The position numbers were made by a program, and so were the translations under genes. 64,000 nucleotides of DNA from Prochlorococcus sp. AG-402-M15. GTDB taxonomy: Bacteria; Cyanobacteriota; Cyanobacteriia; PCC-6307; Cyanobiaceae. The stretch covers positions 62,001 to 126,000 of the forward strand of contig QCIP01000002.1 in the NCBI GenBank assembly GCA_003216615.1, given 5' to 3'. Every line of letters begins with the position of its first letter. Positions within the stretch are counted from its first letter, which is position 1. Positions 684 through 31,980 of this stretch are shown here, in pieces. Under the pieces are notes generated by a model that saw only the letters and a list, made by a program, of their open reading frames with translations, had not been told where the DNA came from and did no database searches.

Positions 684-935
684 ATGCAAGAGTTAAATTA
701 CGAAGTAGATTCAACAGTTTTAAATCATAAAGATGAAGTAATTAGTTTCAAATGTGAACTTCAGGAAAATCTTCAAAATGCCATGAAAGAATTTGTTGAG
801 GAACATCCAAATTGGGATCAATACAGGTTACTACAAGCTGCTATTGCAGGATTTTTGATGCAAAAAGGATTTCAAAATAGGGATTTAACAAGACTCTATA
901 TTGGAAATATGTTTTCAATGAATTTTAAGAACTAA
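684..935 (+). CDS. DUF2811 family protein
   Basis: An 83-residue small soluble protein typical of cyanobacteria. The DUF2811 signature is visible in the middle: an amphipathic region ending in EEHPNWDQYRLLQAA (residues ~39-53), followed by a helix and the LMQKGFQNRDL segment. The function is unknown. It converges on the EVE-domain gene with only 7 bp between the stops. Confidence 0.8.
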   Translation: MQELNYEVDSTVLNHKDEVISFKCELQENLQNAMKEFVEEHPNWDQYRLLQAAIAGFLMQKGFQNRDLTRLYIGNMFSMNFKN

Positions 936-942
936 ATATTTT

Positions 943-1401
943 TTATATTTTTTCTAGTAGTATTTTTGCAATATCATTTCTGACAGGTAATATAGACAAC
1001 CTATTTCCTTTTTTTACAACTAATAACTCATCCTCATTAAATAAAATCTTTAATTCAGGTAAACTTAAAATCTTATTTGACTTACAATTATATTTTACTT
1101 TTACACAATCCCATCTCGGATTATCAGGTTTCGATCTTGGATCAAAATATTTTGAATCTTTATCAAATTGAGTAGGGTCAACAATATTTAGATCTATTAC
1201 GTCCATAAGTCCCACAATTCCTGGGGGTTTACAGTTCGAATGATAGAAAAAAACCTTATCTCCTTTGTTCATTTTTCTCATAAAATTTCGAGCCTGATAA
1301 TTTCTTATTCCGTCCCACAAAGTTACACCTTCATTTTTTAATGTATCTATGCTGTAAGCATCAGGCTCACTTTTCATTAGCCAGTAATTAATGTTAGTCA
1401 T
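943..1401 (-). CDS. EVE domain-containing protein
   Basis: A 152-residue single-domain EVE protein (PUA-like fold, thymocyte nuclear protein 1 family). The N-terminus reads YWLMKSEPDAYSIDTL, followed by LWDGIRNYQARNFMR and GDKVFFYHSN, which are the diagnostic family motifs. EVE/PUA-like domains bind modified bases in nucleic acids, and the bacterial role is unclear. The first ~35 bp of this gene and ~140 bp upstream are duplicated at 2588-2762. Shorter copies of the YWLMK segment recur near 5.7 and 8.9 kb, so the gene's 5' end looks like a recombination target. Confidence 0.9.
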   Translation of the reverse strand: MTNINYWLMKSEPDAYSIDTLKNEGVTLWDGIRNYQARNFMRKMNKGDKVFFYHSNCKPPGIVGLMDVIDLNIVDPTQFDKDSKYFDPRSKPDNPRWDCVKVKYNCKSNKILSLPELKILFNEDELLVVKKGNRLSILPVRNDIAKILLEKI

Positions 1402-1541
1402 ATCAAGGATTTAGAAGAAAACTATAATGTGTGAACGGTGTGTGAACAGAATACTGAAAACGCTCAATTCTAGGTTAATTATCCATCAAATTATCTATTT
1501 AGGAAAGTGATAATGGGTAAGGGGGGTTAAAACAGTTTTGA
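1367..1541. repeat. Direct repeat, copy A (EVE 5' end plus upstream region)
   Basis: This ~175 bp covers the start of the EVE gene and its upstream DNA and is repeated at 2588-2762. The first third has diverged, but the portion from the tandem octamers onward is nearly identical. Copy A contains two octamers GTGTGAAC (1429-1436 and 1440-1447) separated by GGT, an 11-bp period. In copy A the EVE gene is intact, so this is probably the parental copy. Confidence 0.85.
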
Positions 1542-4177: not shown

Positions 4178-4206
4178 TTTACATAAATTAATATTAGTGT
4201 TACATT
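4178..4206 (+). promoter_or_regulatory. Shared hli promoter, copy 1
   Basis: TTTACA (4178-4183) and TACATT (4201-4206) are separated by exactly 17 bp, a sigma-70-type arrangement. Nearly the same bases, including the spacer, precede hli genes at 22567-22595 and on the minus strand at 23757-23785. The sequence after the -10 box (ATTAGTTTACG) is also partly conserved. It would drive the eight-gene hli micro-operon. Confidence 0.7.
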
Positions 4207-4233
4207 AGTTTACGTAAATTACTCTTTATAAAA

Positions 4234-4341
4234 ATGACCCCTGAAGCAGAAAGATTTAACGGTTGGGCAGCAATGCTCGGTTTCGTTGCAGCAGTTGGCG
4301 CATACGTAACAACTGGTCAAATTATTCCTGGTTGGTTCTAA
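4234..4341 (+). CDS. hli: High-light-inducible protein, 35 aa
   Basis: A minimal one-helix Hli protein of the chlorophyll a/b-binding superfamily. ERFNGWAAMLGF carries the ExxNGxxAMxGF chlorophyll-binding signature, and the protein ends TTGQIIPGWF. Hli proteins bind chlorophyll and carotenoid in the thylakoid and protect photosystems under excess light. It differs by one residue (Trp/Leu) from the product at 23627-23734. Its stop TAA overlaps the ATG of the next hli by one base. First gene of the micro-operon. Confidence 0.95.
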   Translation: MTPEAERFNGWAAMLGFVAAVGAYVTTGQIIPGWF

Positions 4342-4475
4342 TGACAAACACAAAAACAGTTGAGAAGGAAAAGGTTATAGCTGAGAAGCTTAACGGAAGA
4401 TTTGCAATGATGGGCTTTATTGCTCTTGTTGGTGCTTATCTGACAACAGGTCAAATTATTCCTGGCTTTGTGTAA
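4341..4475 (+). CDS. hli: High-light-inducible protein, 44 aa
   Basis: One-helix Hli protein with EKLNGRFAMMGFIALVGAY as the chlorophyll-binding helix and a TTGQIIPGFV end. The N-terminus is lysine/glutamate rich. I chose the ATG that overlaps the previous stop by one base; longer upstream extensions in this frame merely read through the first hli gene. Paralog of 23487-23627, which also follows a 35-aa hli with a 1-bp overlap. Confidence 0.95.
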   Translation: MTNTKTVEKEKVIAEKLNGRFAMMGFIALVGAYLTTGQIIPGFV

Positions 4476-4657
4476 TGCTTGAGGCAGGAATTAACACTTG
4501 GATTAACACTATACTTTTTCCTTTTATGCCAGTCATAACAGTATTTATTGTTAGTGCGTTAATGTTGAATGATTTGCCATGGAATGATGACGACGACGAT
4601 GATGATGGCGGTGGATTAATCTCACCGGTGTATAACTACGTTCCCCAAGGGGCTTAG
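4475..4657 (+). CDS. Poly-aspartate small membrane protein, 60 aa
   Basis: A hydrophobic helix (about residues 12-32) is followed by PWNDDDDDDDGGGLISP, a run of seven aspartates then three glycines. The ATG overlaps the preceding hli stop by one base. Two other proteins in the window share the layout of a helix, an Asp run, GG and then a leucine/isoleucine pair: 30537-30716 and 31846-31980. The acidic patch could bind divalent metal, but this is inference. No named family is known to me. Confidence 0.8.
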   Translation: MLEAGINTWINTILFPFMPVITVFIVSALMLNDLPWNDDDDDDDGGGLISPVYNYVPQGA

Positions 4658-4672
4658 AGGATATATATCAAA

Positions 4673-4786
4673 ATGATTTTTATCTCATCTTTATTTAACT
4701 CAGTCCCTTCAAGTGCTAAAGACCTTTTAGAATTTGGTTTCTTTCTTACTGTGGGTATTACAGCAGGAAAAGTAGGACTTTTATGA
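4673..4786 (+). CDS. Small membrane protein, 37 aa
   Basis: Encodes MIFISSLFNSVPSS followed by a hydrophobic segment FGFFLTVGITAGKVGLL. The stop overlaps the next start by 4 bp (ATGA). It is supported mainly by its place in a tightly packed collinear series of micro-genes between one promoter and one terminator. Confidence 0.6.
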   Translation: MIFISSLFNSVPSSAKDLLEFGFFLTVGITAGKVGLL

Positions 4787-4869
4787 AAACATTTCTAATT
4801 GCCATATCGCTATTTGGAATTGCAATAATAACTACTGCGATATCACCAAGTATTGCTTACGCAAAATAA
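4783..4869 (+). CDS. 28-aa protein resembling a bare signal peptide
   Basis: The whole product looks like a signal peptide: MKTFLIAISLFGIAIITT, then SIAYAK, with an Ala-x-Ala cleavage-type motif one residue from the end. It overlaps the preceding gene by 4 bp. It could instead be a single-span thylakoid peptide. A frameshifted longer gene is possible, but no secreted domain follows in any frame. Confidence 0.5.
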   Translation: MKTFLIAISLFGIAIITTAISPSIAYAK

Positions 4870-4905
4870 AAATTTTAATCACTCTTATTAACAAACAATT
4901 AAAAA

Positions 4906-5034
4906 ATGGAAAACTCAAAATCAACTTATTGGCAAAATGCCGAGAGAACCAATGGAAGAATGGCAATGATGGGTTTATTTGCATTGGTTGTAAACTACGG
5001 TCTTTTTGGCTGGATCATCCCAGGTATTTTTTAA
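4906..5034 (+). CDS. hli: High-light-inducible protein, 42 aa
   Basis: A divergent Hli: ERTNGRMAMMGLFALVVNY contains the chlorophyll-binding ExxNGxxAM signature, but the helix ends in NYGLFGWIIPGIF rather than the usual TTGQIIPG. Unlike its neighbours it has a 36-bp leader. Third hli of the same transcript; the next gene starts one base after its stop. Confidence 0.92.
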   Translation: MENSKSTYWQNAERTNGRMAMMGLFALVVNYGLFGWIIPGIF

Positions 5035-5035
5035 A

Positions 5036-5125
5036 ATGAATATAGACATTTTCTTAATCTCCTTCTTTACATATCTATTAGTGCCAGTGGTAATGATAGC
5101 TAAAGGAAAAAAAGCAACTAATTAA
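5036..5125 (+). CDS. Small membrane protein, 29 aa
   Basis: MNIDIFLISFFTYLLVPVV forms one membrane helix followed by a basic tail (AKGKKATN). It starts one base after the third hli gene and is followed four bases later by the 59-aa gene. It has the typical positive-inside layout of a single-span photosystem-associated peptide, but its function is unknown. Confidence 0.6.
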   Translation: MNIDIFLISFFTYLLVPVVMIAKGKKATN

Positions 5126-5129
5126 AAAA

Positions 5130-5309
5130 ATGAATTTAGGTATTCTTTTTCTCTTAGTTAACGCAACTGGATCAATAACTTTATCCGAATTGGATTGGAT
5201 TGCAGATCATCAATCAGAATTTTCAAGGTTAGATATGGCATTAGTTTTAAAAATTGGTCGCCTTATGGATGAAGGAATAATAGAACTGGATTGTAGATTG
5301 CCAGCATAA
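5130..5309 (+). CDS. Small conserved protein, 59 aa
   Basis: A short hydrophobic N-terminus is followed by a soluble helical region, LSELDWIADHQSEFSRLDMA, then LKIGRLMDEGIIELDC. The pattern resembles small proteins often found beside hli genes in Prochlorococcus (from memory, not checked). Last gene before the terminator. Confidence 0.7.
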   Translation: MNLGILFLLVNATGSITLSELDWIADHQSEFSRLDMALVLKIGRLMDEGIIELDCRLPA

Positions 5310-5334
5310 ATGTTTAAAATTATATCGTCATGAG

Positions 5335-5369
5335 AGCTTGCTTTTAGGGATATAAGCGAGCTTTTTTTG
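5335..5369 (+). terminator. Terminator of the hli micro-operon
   Basis: An AGCTTGCT/AGCGAGCT stem (one G-T wobble) followed by seven T, located 25 bp after the last stop. It defines the 3' end of the eight-gene transcript. Confidence 0.8.
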
Positions 5370-5447
5370 TTTTCTATCTGTGAAGAGTGTGTTCATTAAA
5401 AAAAGTTATAAAGTTAATTATTAGCTATTAATAAATAAAGGATATTA

Positions 5448-5787: not shown

Positions 5788-5892
5788 ATGAATCAAATCA
5801 GTTTATTGATGAACTCTGCCCCAAGATATTTGATTGCGTTCACATTCTTTGTGGCTGTTGGTTTTACTGCAGCATTTTTTGGATTAATTTAG
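5788..5892 (+). CDS. Small membrane protein, 34 aa
   Basis: A single hydrophobic helix (YLIAFTFFVAVGFTAAFFG) preceded by a short polar N-terminus with one arginine. Nothing else is identifiable. It begins just after repeat C. Confidence 0.5.
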   Translation: MNQISLLMNSAPRYLIAFTFFVAVGFTAAFFGLI

Positions 5893-17944: not shown

Positions 17945-18079
17945 ATGCTACAAAATCGTCCGATCTACCATTTGATAGACCGCAGTACGACTCAAGCCAT
18001 AGGACGGGGACTTGAGCATGTTCAGGATCTGCATCATGGTAAACATGTATTTCAATGGAAAGTCATTCGTATATTGTAG
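17945..18079 (+). CDS. Small conserved-looking protein, 44 aa
   Basis: Encodes a soluble histidine- and arginine-containing protein (IYHLIDRSTTQAIGRGLEHV, then DLHHGKHVFQWKV). The codons are clearly GC-richer than the island average, using CGC, CGG, ACG and CTG. This implies either strong constraint or transfer from a higher-GC relative. It ends ~50 bp before a terminator hairpin. No named family. Confidence 0.6.
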   Translation: MLQNRPIYHLIDRSTTQAIGRGLEHVQDLHHGKHVFQWKVIRIL

Positions 18080-22195: not shown

Positions 22196-22566
22196 ACCTT
22201 TTTTTAGTCTATTTTCTATTTAGCAACAAAATTTATTTTTAGCAGTTGTTAATTTAAAATTCGAAAAACATAAATTGTTTATATTGTATTTTGTTGCTTC
22301 AAAATTAAAAGAGCTTGCAAGTAATTATCCCACCTGCAAGCTCATGACGACCTAGTTAAATTCAGATTTCTGATGTTAACCAGCTAAGCACTTCCTAAAT
22401 GCTAAGTATATCTTACTAAGTAAAATTACTTAATGTGAGTATAAATGCTTATTCAAGCTAATTTATCCATAAATTAGGTAAAAGGTTTATTTAATTAAAT
22501 TTTCTATTGAACAATTGCTCAAAAAAAGTTTTAAGTTCTTGCGGCTCAATAATTCACACCCTTTGA
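22196..22566. other. Spacer with a long hairpin
   Basis: No gene in ~370 bp. A perfect 9-bp stem GAGCTTGCA/TGCAAGCTC (22311-22319 and 22335-22343) with a 15-base loop lies in a GC-richer patch but lacks a T-run. It may be part of a small RNA or an attenuator ahead of the hli gene. Confidence 0.4.
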
Positions 22567-22595
22567 TTTACATAAATTAATATTTGTGTTACATT
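22567..22595 (+). promoter_or_regulatory. Shared hli promoter, copy 2
   Basis: TTTACA (22567-22572), 17 bp, TACATT (22590-22595). It is almost base-for-base the same as 4178-4206, including the spacer, 11 bp upstream of the hli reading frame's first ATG. Confidence 0.7.
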
Positions 22596-22606
22596 AATTA
22601 ACAATT

Positions 22607-22825
22607 ATGATTTCTTATATGTCTAATTCAGAAGTTACAACAGAGTCAGGTGGAAGACAAAATATGTTTCCATCCGAAACTAGACCTTATATTGATGAAT
22701 CTGTATCTTACGAGGGCTACCCTCAAAATGCAGAAAAAGTAAATGGCAGATGGGCTATGGTTGGATTCGTTGCACTTTTGGGGTCTTATGCCACAACTGG
22801 ACAGATCATACCTGGAATATTTTAA
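22607..22825 (+). CDS. hli: High-light-inducible protein, long form (68-72 aa)
   Basis: The C-terminus is a standard Hli helix (EKVNGRWAMVGFVALLGSY, then TTGQIIPGIF). The N-terminal ~40 residues form a polar extension (SEVTTESGGRQNMFPSE). ATGs at 22607 and 22619 are both possible; the second (MSNSEV) gives 68 residues. The predicted -10 box is only 11 bp from the first ATG, so transcription probably favours the second. Confidence 0.95.
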   Translation: MISYMSNSEVTTESGGRQNMFPSETRPYIDESVSYEGYPQNAEKVNGRWAMVGFVALLGSYATTGQIIPGIF

Positions 22826-23486: not shown

Positions 23487-23627
23487 TTAGATAAAACCTG
23501 GAATGATTTGACCGGTTGTTAAATATGCACCAACTAGGGCTACAAATCCCAGCATTGCAAATCTTCCATTTAACTTTTCAGCTACGATTTTTTCTTTTTC
23601 AACTATTTTTGATTCAGAATTTTTCAT
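23487..23627 (-). CDS. hli: High-light-inducible protein, 46 aa
   Basis: One-helix Hli (EKLNGRFAMLGFVALVGAY, TTGQIIPGFI). The N-terminus VEKEKIVAEK matches the paralog at 4341-4475. Its ATG overlaps the preceding hli stop by one base, exactly as in the plus-strand pair. Confidence 0.95.
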   Translation of the reverse strand: MKNSESKIVEKEKIVAEKLNGRFAMLGFVALVGAYLTTGQIIPGFI

Positions 23628-23734
23628 TAGAACCAACCTGGGATAATCTGGCCAGTTGTTACATAAGCACCAACTGCAGCTACAAAGCCTAACATTGCAG
23701 CCAATCCATTAAAACGTTCTGCTTCTGGGGTCAT
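23627..23734 (-). CDS. hli: High-light-inducible protein, 35 aa
   Basis: Differs from the product of 4234-4341 only at one residue (ERFNGLAAMLGF instead of ERFNGWAAMLGF). First gene of the minus-strand hli pair, under the shared promoter at 23757-23785. Together the two loci show a duplicated two-gene cassette. Confidence 0.95.
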   Translation of the reverse strand: MTPEAERFNGLAAMLGFVAAVGAYVTTGQIIPGWF

Positions 23735-30536: not shown

Positions 30537-30716
30537 TTAAACGTTTGAGCTTGAATATGCTGGTATAAGCATGCCTCCGTCTTGATCGTCATTATCGTCA
30601 TCGAATCCACCGCCAAGGAGCAATTCAATTATCACAAGTATTGCTACAGGGTAAAGACACCATAAAATTGCTGTTAAAGGATTTATTAAAGAAGAAGATG
30701 CATACAATTCTGTCAT
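30537..30716 (-). CDS. Poly-aspartate small membrane protein, 59 aa
   Basis: A helix (ILWCLYPVAILVIIELLL) is followed by GGGFDDDNDDQDGGMLIPAY. The acidic run and GG-x-LI motif match 4475-4657 and 31846-31980. The acidic segment lies C-terminal to the membrane helix in all three. Confidence 0.7.
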   Translation of the reverse strand: MTELYASSSLINPLTAILWCLYPVAILVIIELLLGGGFDDDNDDQDGGMLIPAYSSSNV

Positions 30717-31845: not shown

Positions 31846-31980
31846 ATGGATGAGCTTTCTGTATTATCAATTTCATTATCTATAGCATCTCTTGGGATAT
31901 TTTTTTTATTTTTTGCATCAAATGATGATGATGACCAAGATGGAGGTAAGTTGATTAAATCAGCCCAAAGAATTAATTAA
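31846..31980 (+). CDS. Poly-aspartate small membrane protein, 44 aa
   Basis: MDELSVLSISLSIASLGIFF forms the helix, followed by FASNDDDDQDGGKLIKS. Smallest member of the three-copy poly-Asp-GG-LI family. I chose the ATG at 31846; an upstream GTG frame reads through unlikely sequence. Confidence 0.65.
   Translation: MDELSVLSISLSIASLGIFFLFFASNDDDDQDGGKLIKSAQRIN

Follow-up and report, generated by a model that had tools for sequence, protein, structure and literature searches.

Genes of the hli type are reported to be present in more than 20 copies in high-light Prochlorococcus, and Hli proteins have been tied to photosystem protection (PMC2663038). Exchange of hli between phages and hosts is already known (PMC2663038, citing Lindell 2004). 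The multicopy island hli, of which there are several copies per genome, are considered phage-derived, and some are reported to be induced in illuminated infection: hli transcripts of MED4 are reported to go up during infection by P-HM2, in the light only (PMC2663038; PMC5082946). The relevant sections of these papers deal with hli alone; non-hli partners and a conserved gene order are features of the block described here. A second related system is the hli/psbA region of cyanomyoviruses (PMC3037559; GU071099, GU075905, AY939844, HQ316583, GU071097), which, in the part of the description concerned, shares o1, o2, o3D and o4 of the present block, or a subset of them, mostly near psbA. It differs in having extra hli and other small genes; o7 and o8 were not found in named phages, and o5 is present in only two uncultivated contigs. 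A third is the control of Synechocystis hli (scp) genes by HLR1, two TTACA-type halves directly repeated within the core promoter, through which RpaB represses, high light bringing about the release (PMC6331805). The same type of repeat is found here, as a sequence match, in a putative core promoter. One relative of a small non-hli gene of the block has also been recorded. PSSM2_278 of phage P-SSM2 is a homologue of o3D, and the MED4 homologue PMED4_15491 was reported as a newly found, phage-related open reading frame (PMC2518516). The passages of that paper that name them treat a single open reading frame, connected neither with hli or o4 nor with an operon.

The block lies in the 1.6 Mb genome of Prochlorococcus sp. 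AG-402-M15, in a stretch of 64,000 nucleotides that was analysed as a whole and is here termed the window. Eight collinear open reading frames, o1 to o8, occupy positions 4234-5309 of the plus strand in the window's list of reading frames (Table 1). The junctions from o1 through o8 measure -1, -1, +15, -4, +36, +1 and +4 bases, negative values being overlaps. An earlier note on this DNA had described eight collinear genes with overlaps of 1, 1 and 4 bases and one gap of 1 base, three of the genes being hli; the reading frame coordinates agree with this layout.

Table 1. Features of the block and related elements of the window (positions are those of the window)
Feature	Position	Strand	Evidence and remarks
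Promoter-like site TTTACA-17-TACATT	4178..4206	+	promoter scan; similar sequence upstream of o1 in relatives compared
HLR1-like direct repeat GTTACATTAGTTTACGTA, overlaps -10 element	4199..4216	+	15/16 defined positions
o1, short Hli, 35 aa	4234..4341	+	phrog_178 4e-19; dN/dS 0.09
o2, Hli, 44 aa, start on o1 stop (1-base overlap)	4341..4475	+	phrog_20629 2e-19, phrog_178 1e-18; dN/dS 0.13
o3D, 60 aa, hydrophobic stretch, seven Asp, GGG, short tail	4475..4657	+	phrog_7843 2e-18; phage homologues; dN/dS 0.17
o4, hydrophobic, 37 aa	4673..4786	+	phrog_17067 3e-10; phage homologues; dN/dS 0.34
o5, 28 aa, signal-peptide-like (by eye), 4-base overlap with o4	4783..4869	+	homologue in phage contigs L090/L091; dN/dS 0.87
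o6, Hli, 42 aa	4906..5034	+	Pfam Chloroa_b-bind 25 bits; phrog_178 3e-16; dN/dS 0.13
o7, 29 aa, hydrophobic, basic tail	5036..5125	+	dN/dS 0.16; paralogue at C3:153 kb
o8, 59 aa, predicted alpha/beta	5130..5309	+	relatives in 156/201 family genomes; AF2 pLDDT 90.8; dN/dS 0.27
Terminator hairpin, then T run	5332..5365	+	folding of 5322-5375
o4 paralogue, 34 aa, 0.5 kb past operon	5788..5892	+	47% identity; phrog_17067 0.002
Further hli, 42 aa	6427..6555	+	no HLR1-like box found (11/16)
72-aa-type hli, similar promoter, HLR1-like box 22588-22605	22607..22825	+	
o2-like and o1-like hli pair, related promoter (window 23.5 kb)	23487..23734	-	
o3D paralogue off block, 59 aa, hydrophobic stretch, acidic run, GG	30537..30716	-	phrog_7843 9e-18

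Hli/Scp proteins are marked by an NGxxAM helix motif; they bind pigment and associate with photosystem or chlorophyll-synthase complexes. The motif is present in o1, o2 and o6, and all three hit phrog_178, the 'high light inducible protein' family of phages (3e-16 to 4e-19), which bears out the three hli genes of the earlier description. In Pfam, only o6 clears the Chloroa_b-bind threshold of 22.3 bits, with a score of 25.0; o1 and o2 stay under it. In PHROG and Pfam profile searches, o3D, o4, o5, o7 and o8 are without a match to phrog_178 or Chloroa_b-bind, and none of the five rises above the cut-off of a Pfam or NCBIfam family. The families matched by o3D and o4, phrog_7843 and phrog_17067, are phage families of unknown function.

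Searches of PDB sequences with the small proteins gave nothing significant. The non-hli products had been taken to be single-span peptides throughout, which does not hold for o8: AF2 confidently predicts a small alpha/beta fold (best pLDDT 90.8, the five models ranging from 65 to 91), and the gene is full-length in 13 of 40 relatives. The best structural match of this predicted fold is the N-terminal domain of Synechocystis CdgR (VIA Z 8.3, rmsd 3.3, 59 residues aligned, next match 4.0), on a scale where best Z values of 7-8 are common by chance. Foldseek gives E 3.6 for the same N-terminal part, and 8hja is absent among the PDB sequence matches; the possible likeness to CdgR is kept as a lead only. 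A candidate assignment of o8 to Harpin reached E 0.2 only and was taken as chance. For o3D, four PsbM sequences appear among seven matches (E 0.48 to 1.4), with no Pfam match at E 1, and a putative kinship with PsbM is likewise a lead and nothing firmer.

A nucleotide search of 200 genomes of the genus found related DNA in 198, mostly single hli or promoter pieces; long matches to the block are in a minority of them. Forty distinct relatives were chosen for the presence of o4 near o3D or for a long DNA match. The gene order, whose conservation in other strains the earlier note had proposed as a check, is found in these, with near-invariant junctions wherever both genes are intact: -1 for o1/o2 in 28 of 28 and for o2/o3D in 29 of 29, +15 for o3D/o4 in 37 of 40, -4 for o4/o5 in 33 of 35 and +1 for o6/o7 in 34 of 35. 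Full-length genes number 33 (o1), 29 (o2), 40 each (o3D and o4), 35 each (o5 and o6), 34 (o7) and 13 (o8) among the 40 relatives, the missing ones pooling start-proximal indels, real gene losses and contig ends. All eight genes are full-length in seven relatives and the first seven in 23 (8 and 25 by a looser count). The cultured strain MIT 9302 has a shorter version consisting of an o1-type hli, o3D, o4, o6 and o7; o2, o5 and o8 were not found in it. Strong, cassette-type o3D is present in 24 of 121 genus genomes, a count that leaves out weak matches, many of them with in-frame stops. This patchy presence marks the block as accessory (island-type).

Selection was estimated as pooled pairwise dN/dS of unique same-length alleles, no tree being used, from 65 loci with duplicate genomes included; the junction counts above refer to the 40 relatives left after duplicates were removed. 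Seven of the eight frames are under purifying selection (0.09-0.34), the o7 value of 0.16 coming from 23 of 59 rows of equal length. By this test o1 to o4 and o6 to o8 are therefore real genes. The exception is o5, with a dN/dS of 0.87 and flat codon-position changes; it is regarded as a gene because its frame is maintained and it has a phage homologue. Conservation of the non-hli frames, as earlier proposed, is thus borne out for o3D, o4, o7 and o8 by purifying selection and fails in this respect for o5. The conserved junctions are also of the geometry that a single transcription unit with translational coupling would have. The fixed stoichiometry that had been read from the overlaps does not follow from them.

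The flanks proposed earlier, a promoter and a terminator, can both be pointed to: a promoter-like site lies upstream of the block and a strong hairpin downstream. The promoter scan gave eight such sites in the window as against 9.7 in shuffled sequences, and since it shows no excess, the site carries weight only through its conservation and the HLR1-like box. The hairpin is clear on folding (-15.3 kcal/mol, z -2.95, with none of 200 shuffles as good); the terminator scan missed it because its loop limit was 8. Among 11 folded relatives with o8, the hairpin reaches at least -12.7 kcal/mol in eight and is weak or altered in three (L061, L065 and L070). Inside 4234-5309 the scan gives no terminator-like site on the plus strand. 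One transcript would be consistent with this arrangement.

Two TTACA-type repeats lie over the putative core promoter of o1. They were scored against a consensus pattern that we take to be that of HLR1. Five of six hli promoters of the same genome that were tested score 14-15 of 16 (shuffle p from <0.01 to 0.057), these promoters resembling one another and so not being independent cases; the hli10 promoter scores 11/16. Over the whole window there is no excess of HLR1-like matches (11, with 16 by chance). In phage cassettes, 39 of 62 unique upstream regions score at least 14 as compared with 6 of 440 control upstreams, the controls being those of other open reading frames, many of them probably inside operons. 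Several of the phage matches at score 14 are TTGACA -35 elements, and pattern counts were preferred for that reason. A strict pattern is found in 12 of 62 phage cassettes (shuffle mean 0.04). A broad one, drawn up post hoc, is found in 40 of 62 (shuffle mean 0.60), or in 40 of 51 once contigs with the first hli in a cut-off cassette are left out, also post hoc. In clusters of other genera, the box reaches a shuffle p below 0.05 in only 5 of 10; GTTACAGTTCTTTACA is common to phage P-HM2 and one of these clusters (L205). RpaB may control the block, and if the boxes in phage promoters are true ones, phages would read the host's own light-stress switch.

By tblastn, o3D is found in nine records of named phages at an E limit of 0.01, and o4, at an E limit of 1, in 25; both counts take in GenBank/RefSeq doubles. 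With an o3D query from another genus, 37 phage records match. No match to o5, o7 or o8 was found by tblastn in named phages. P-HM2 has the order o1-o2-o3D-o4, its o3D and o4 being PHM2_202 and PHM2_203, and S-SSM4 has o1-o2-(31-aa peptide)-o3D-(24-aa peptide)-o4. The order is o1-o2-(hli)-(44-aa gene)-o3D in P-RSM4 and o1-o3D in S-SSM5, while P-SSM2 has an expanded hli block that includes o3D and o4. In four of these five phages psbA is 0.8-2.5 kb downstream; among 82 viral loci, many of them short, 21 show a psbA-like match. A hydrophobic peptide of 24 amino acids separates o3D and o4 in both S-SSM4 and P-HM2 (L041:3168-3242, L040:2930-3004).

An o4 relative is encoded by 170 stretches in IMG/VR, of which the best 80 were analysed. 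Of these 80, 62 contigs extend for 900 nt or more upstream of o4; the order hli, o3D, o4 is present in 56 of the 62, o3D lies upstream in 58 and hli in 60. Two uncultivated phage contigs, L090 and L091, display o1-o2-o3D-o4-o5 with junctions of -1, -1, +24 and -4, the overlaps of 1, 1 and 4 bases being the same as in the host block. Genes shared with cyanophages in the same order are accordingly o1 to o4, with o5 added in these two contigs. This shared front half suggests that the small uncharacterised proteins may help to protect the photosynthetic machinery.

In a tree of o3D (51 rows, 64 columns), support is 99/97 for a group made up of the host cassette rows and 100/100 for the wider set in which four phages join it; o3D of other host genera group apart (81/84). 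Many forks of this tree are unresolved and its bootstrap had not settled; phages were thinned to 24 of 63 rows and two host rows were omitted. The grouping fits an exchange between phages and this lineage of hosts, which, in a tree without a fixed root, could have gone in either direction.

Of 201 genomes of the family, 61 (from 27 of 59 genera) have a relative of o4 and 156 (51 of 59 genera) one of o8. Those with o4 are mostly of 1.1-2.0 Mb, and by family and size the genomes of other genera are presumably Prochlorococcus-like. At E 0.001, o3D matches 185 of the 201 genomes, apparently for the most part through acidic-run-like sequence, and the weak matches were not used; strong o3D comprises 61 matches at E 5e-10 or better in 54 genomes. 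Strong o3D and o4 are together in 49 of the 201 and at most 2 kb apart in 28, where uniform placement would give about 0.2. The 28 pairs consist of four cassettes of the same genus, 17 same-strand pairs in other genera (less than 200 bases) and seven opposite-strand pairs (about 1.2-1.5 kb). All 17 same-strand clusters (L205-L221) were inspected by eye; 16 contain hli and 14 an o8 relative, typically in the order hli, (hli), o8, 60-aa protein, o4, 33-aa peptide, o3D. As this order differs from that of the window, the association does not depend on a single ancestral arrangement. All three of o3D, o4 and o8 are also found apart from the block, and when 16 o4 loci away from the cassette were put to a motif search, only one had an hli within 1.5 kb. 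At one locus (L222), an alternative-oxidase gene (726-1229, minus strand; PTOX-like; Pfam AOX 3e-15) begins 118 bases downstream of o3D (1348-1524, minus strand), and at L217 an AhpC/TSA gene comes after o3D. These neighbours, each a single case, suit photo-oxidative stress. The 17 clusters often carry, in addition, the 60-aa protein, which ends in ...HNPAVHIFFQSKGIFLF, the 33-aa peptide and a 25-aa MELNPFKPLKQF peptide; the 60-aa protein has no Pfam family.

The block is probably a light-regulated (derepressed) photoprotection cassette exchanged between Prochlorococcus and T4-like cyanophages, in which o3D and o4 would be membrane microproteins that recur in linkage with Hli. In low light, RpaB bound at the HLR1-like box would cover the promoter and keep the operon off; in excess light, or in an illuminated infected cell, RpaB would be released. 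A single mRNA would then yield three single-helix Hli proteins that guard photosystems in assembly or repair. Beside the Hli, o3D would place a helix in the membrane and, attached to it, an acidic, flexible tail. The other partners would be o4 and o7, further small hydrophobic peptides, o5, a peptide resembling a signal sequence on its own, and o8, a small protein of alpha/beta fold. Cyanophages carry hli, hli, o3D, o4 and rarely o5, in several cases with psbA 0.8 to 2.5 kb downstream, and this phage-borne front half would keep photosynthesis going during infection. A bolder proposal, put forward tentatively, is that o3D and o4 represent two families, so far unrecognised, of microsubunits of the Hli complex or the photosystems, conserved in several genera of the Prochlorococcus family and present, in a light-sensing HLR1 cassette, in T4-like cyanophages, the same multi-part photoprotective complex being formed in phage and host.

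The small genes could instead be passengers of a phage-derived hli cassette in a host island, the non-hli genes being without a role in light protection and their role in phages perhaps unrelated. The block is indeed patchy, with cassette-type o3D in a fifth or so of the genus genomes and the complete set in few carriers; in the tree, o3D of the host cassette falls with four phages and away from o3D of other hosts; o5 is weakly constrained; and multicopy hli are considered phage-derived (PMC2663038). However, hosts keep o3D, o4, o7 and o8 under purifying selection, the clustering of o3D, o4 and o8 with hli recurs in other genera in a different order, and o8 is without a match in named phages, so that a passenger origin appears unlikely. 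Selection also bears on whether some of the small frames, o5 foremost, are translated or whether their overlaps are accidents of composition. The dN/dS and flat codon-position changes of o5, together with its being missing in MIT 9302, would agree with an accident, but its frame and 4-base overlap are kept in nearly all relatives with intact o4 and o5, and the homologue in L090 and L091 has the same overlap. Untranslated frames are quite improbable.

The small proteins might belong to the stress response that shares the promoter and yet act apart from Hli, for example with a terminal oxidase, a peroxiredoxin or photosystem assembly, in which case the operon would couple timing only. Copies of o3D, o4 and o8 away from the block are consistent with this, as are the alternative-oxidase neighbour at L222 and the AhpC/TSA gene at L217; yet in phages, as in the clusters outside the genus, hli are the commonest neighbours. 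Separate action is somewhat less likely than not. Recurrent linked microprotein families in hosts and phages, such as o3D and o4 in the photoprotection cassette favoured here, provide named candidates for the partners of hli products in Prochlorococcus and its phages. In the open-access literature, a search by locus name found an o3D relative only in PMC2518516, and descriptions of the association of o3D, o4 and Hli, of its recurrence in other genera or of HLR1-like boxes at phage hli were not found.

Other copies are present in the source genome. A lone o1 with a promoter is found on C6. Two hli clusters are located on C3, one with an o8 paralogue and the other with an o7 paralogue, the latter near an o6-type hli at C3:153 kb. 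The o4 paralogue just past the block has a counterpart at L184:1302-1605, where the preceding peptide resembles, by eye, the one before o4 in P-HM2. At about 31846-31980 (plus strand) there is a small protein with a hydrophobic stretch, an acidic run and GG, also seen by eye only. The window contains a Glutamine-II riboswitch at 17954-18016 (plus strand). A Yfr20 RNA at 22312-22404 (minus strand) adjoins hli genes; Yfr20 of MED4 is described as high-light induced and near hli11/hli12 (PMC2518516).
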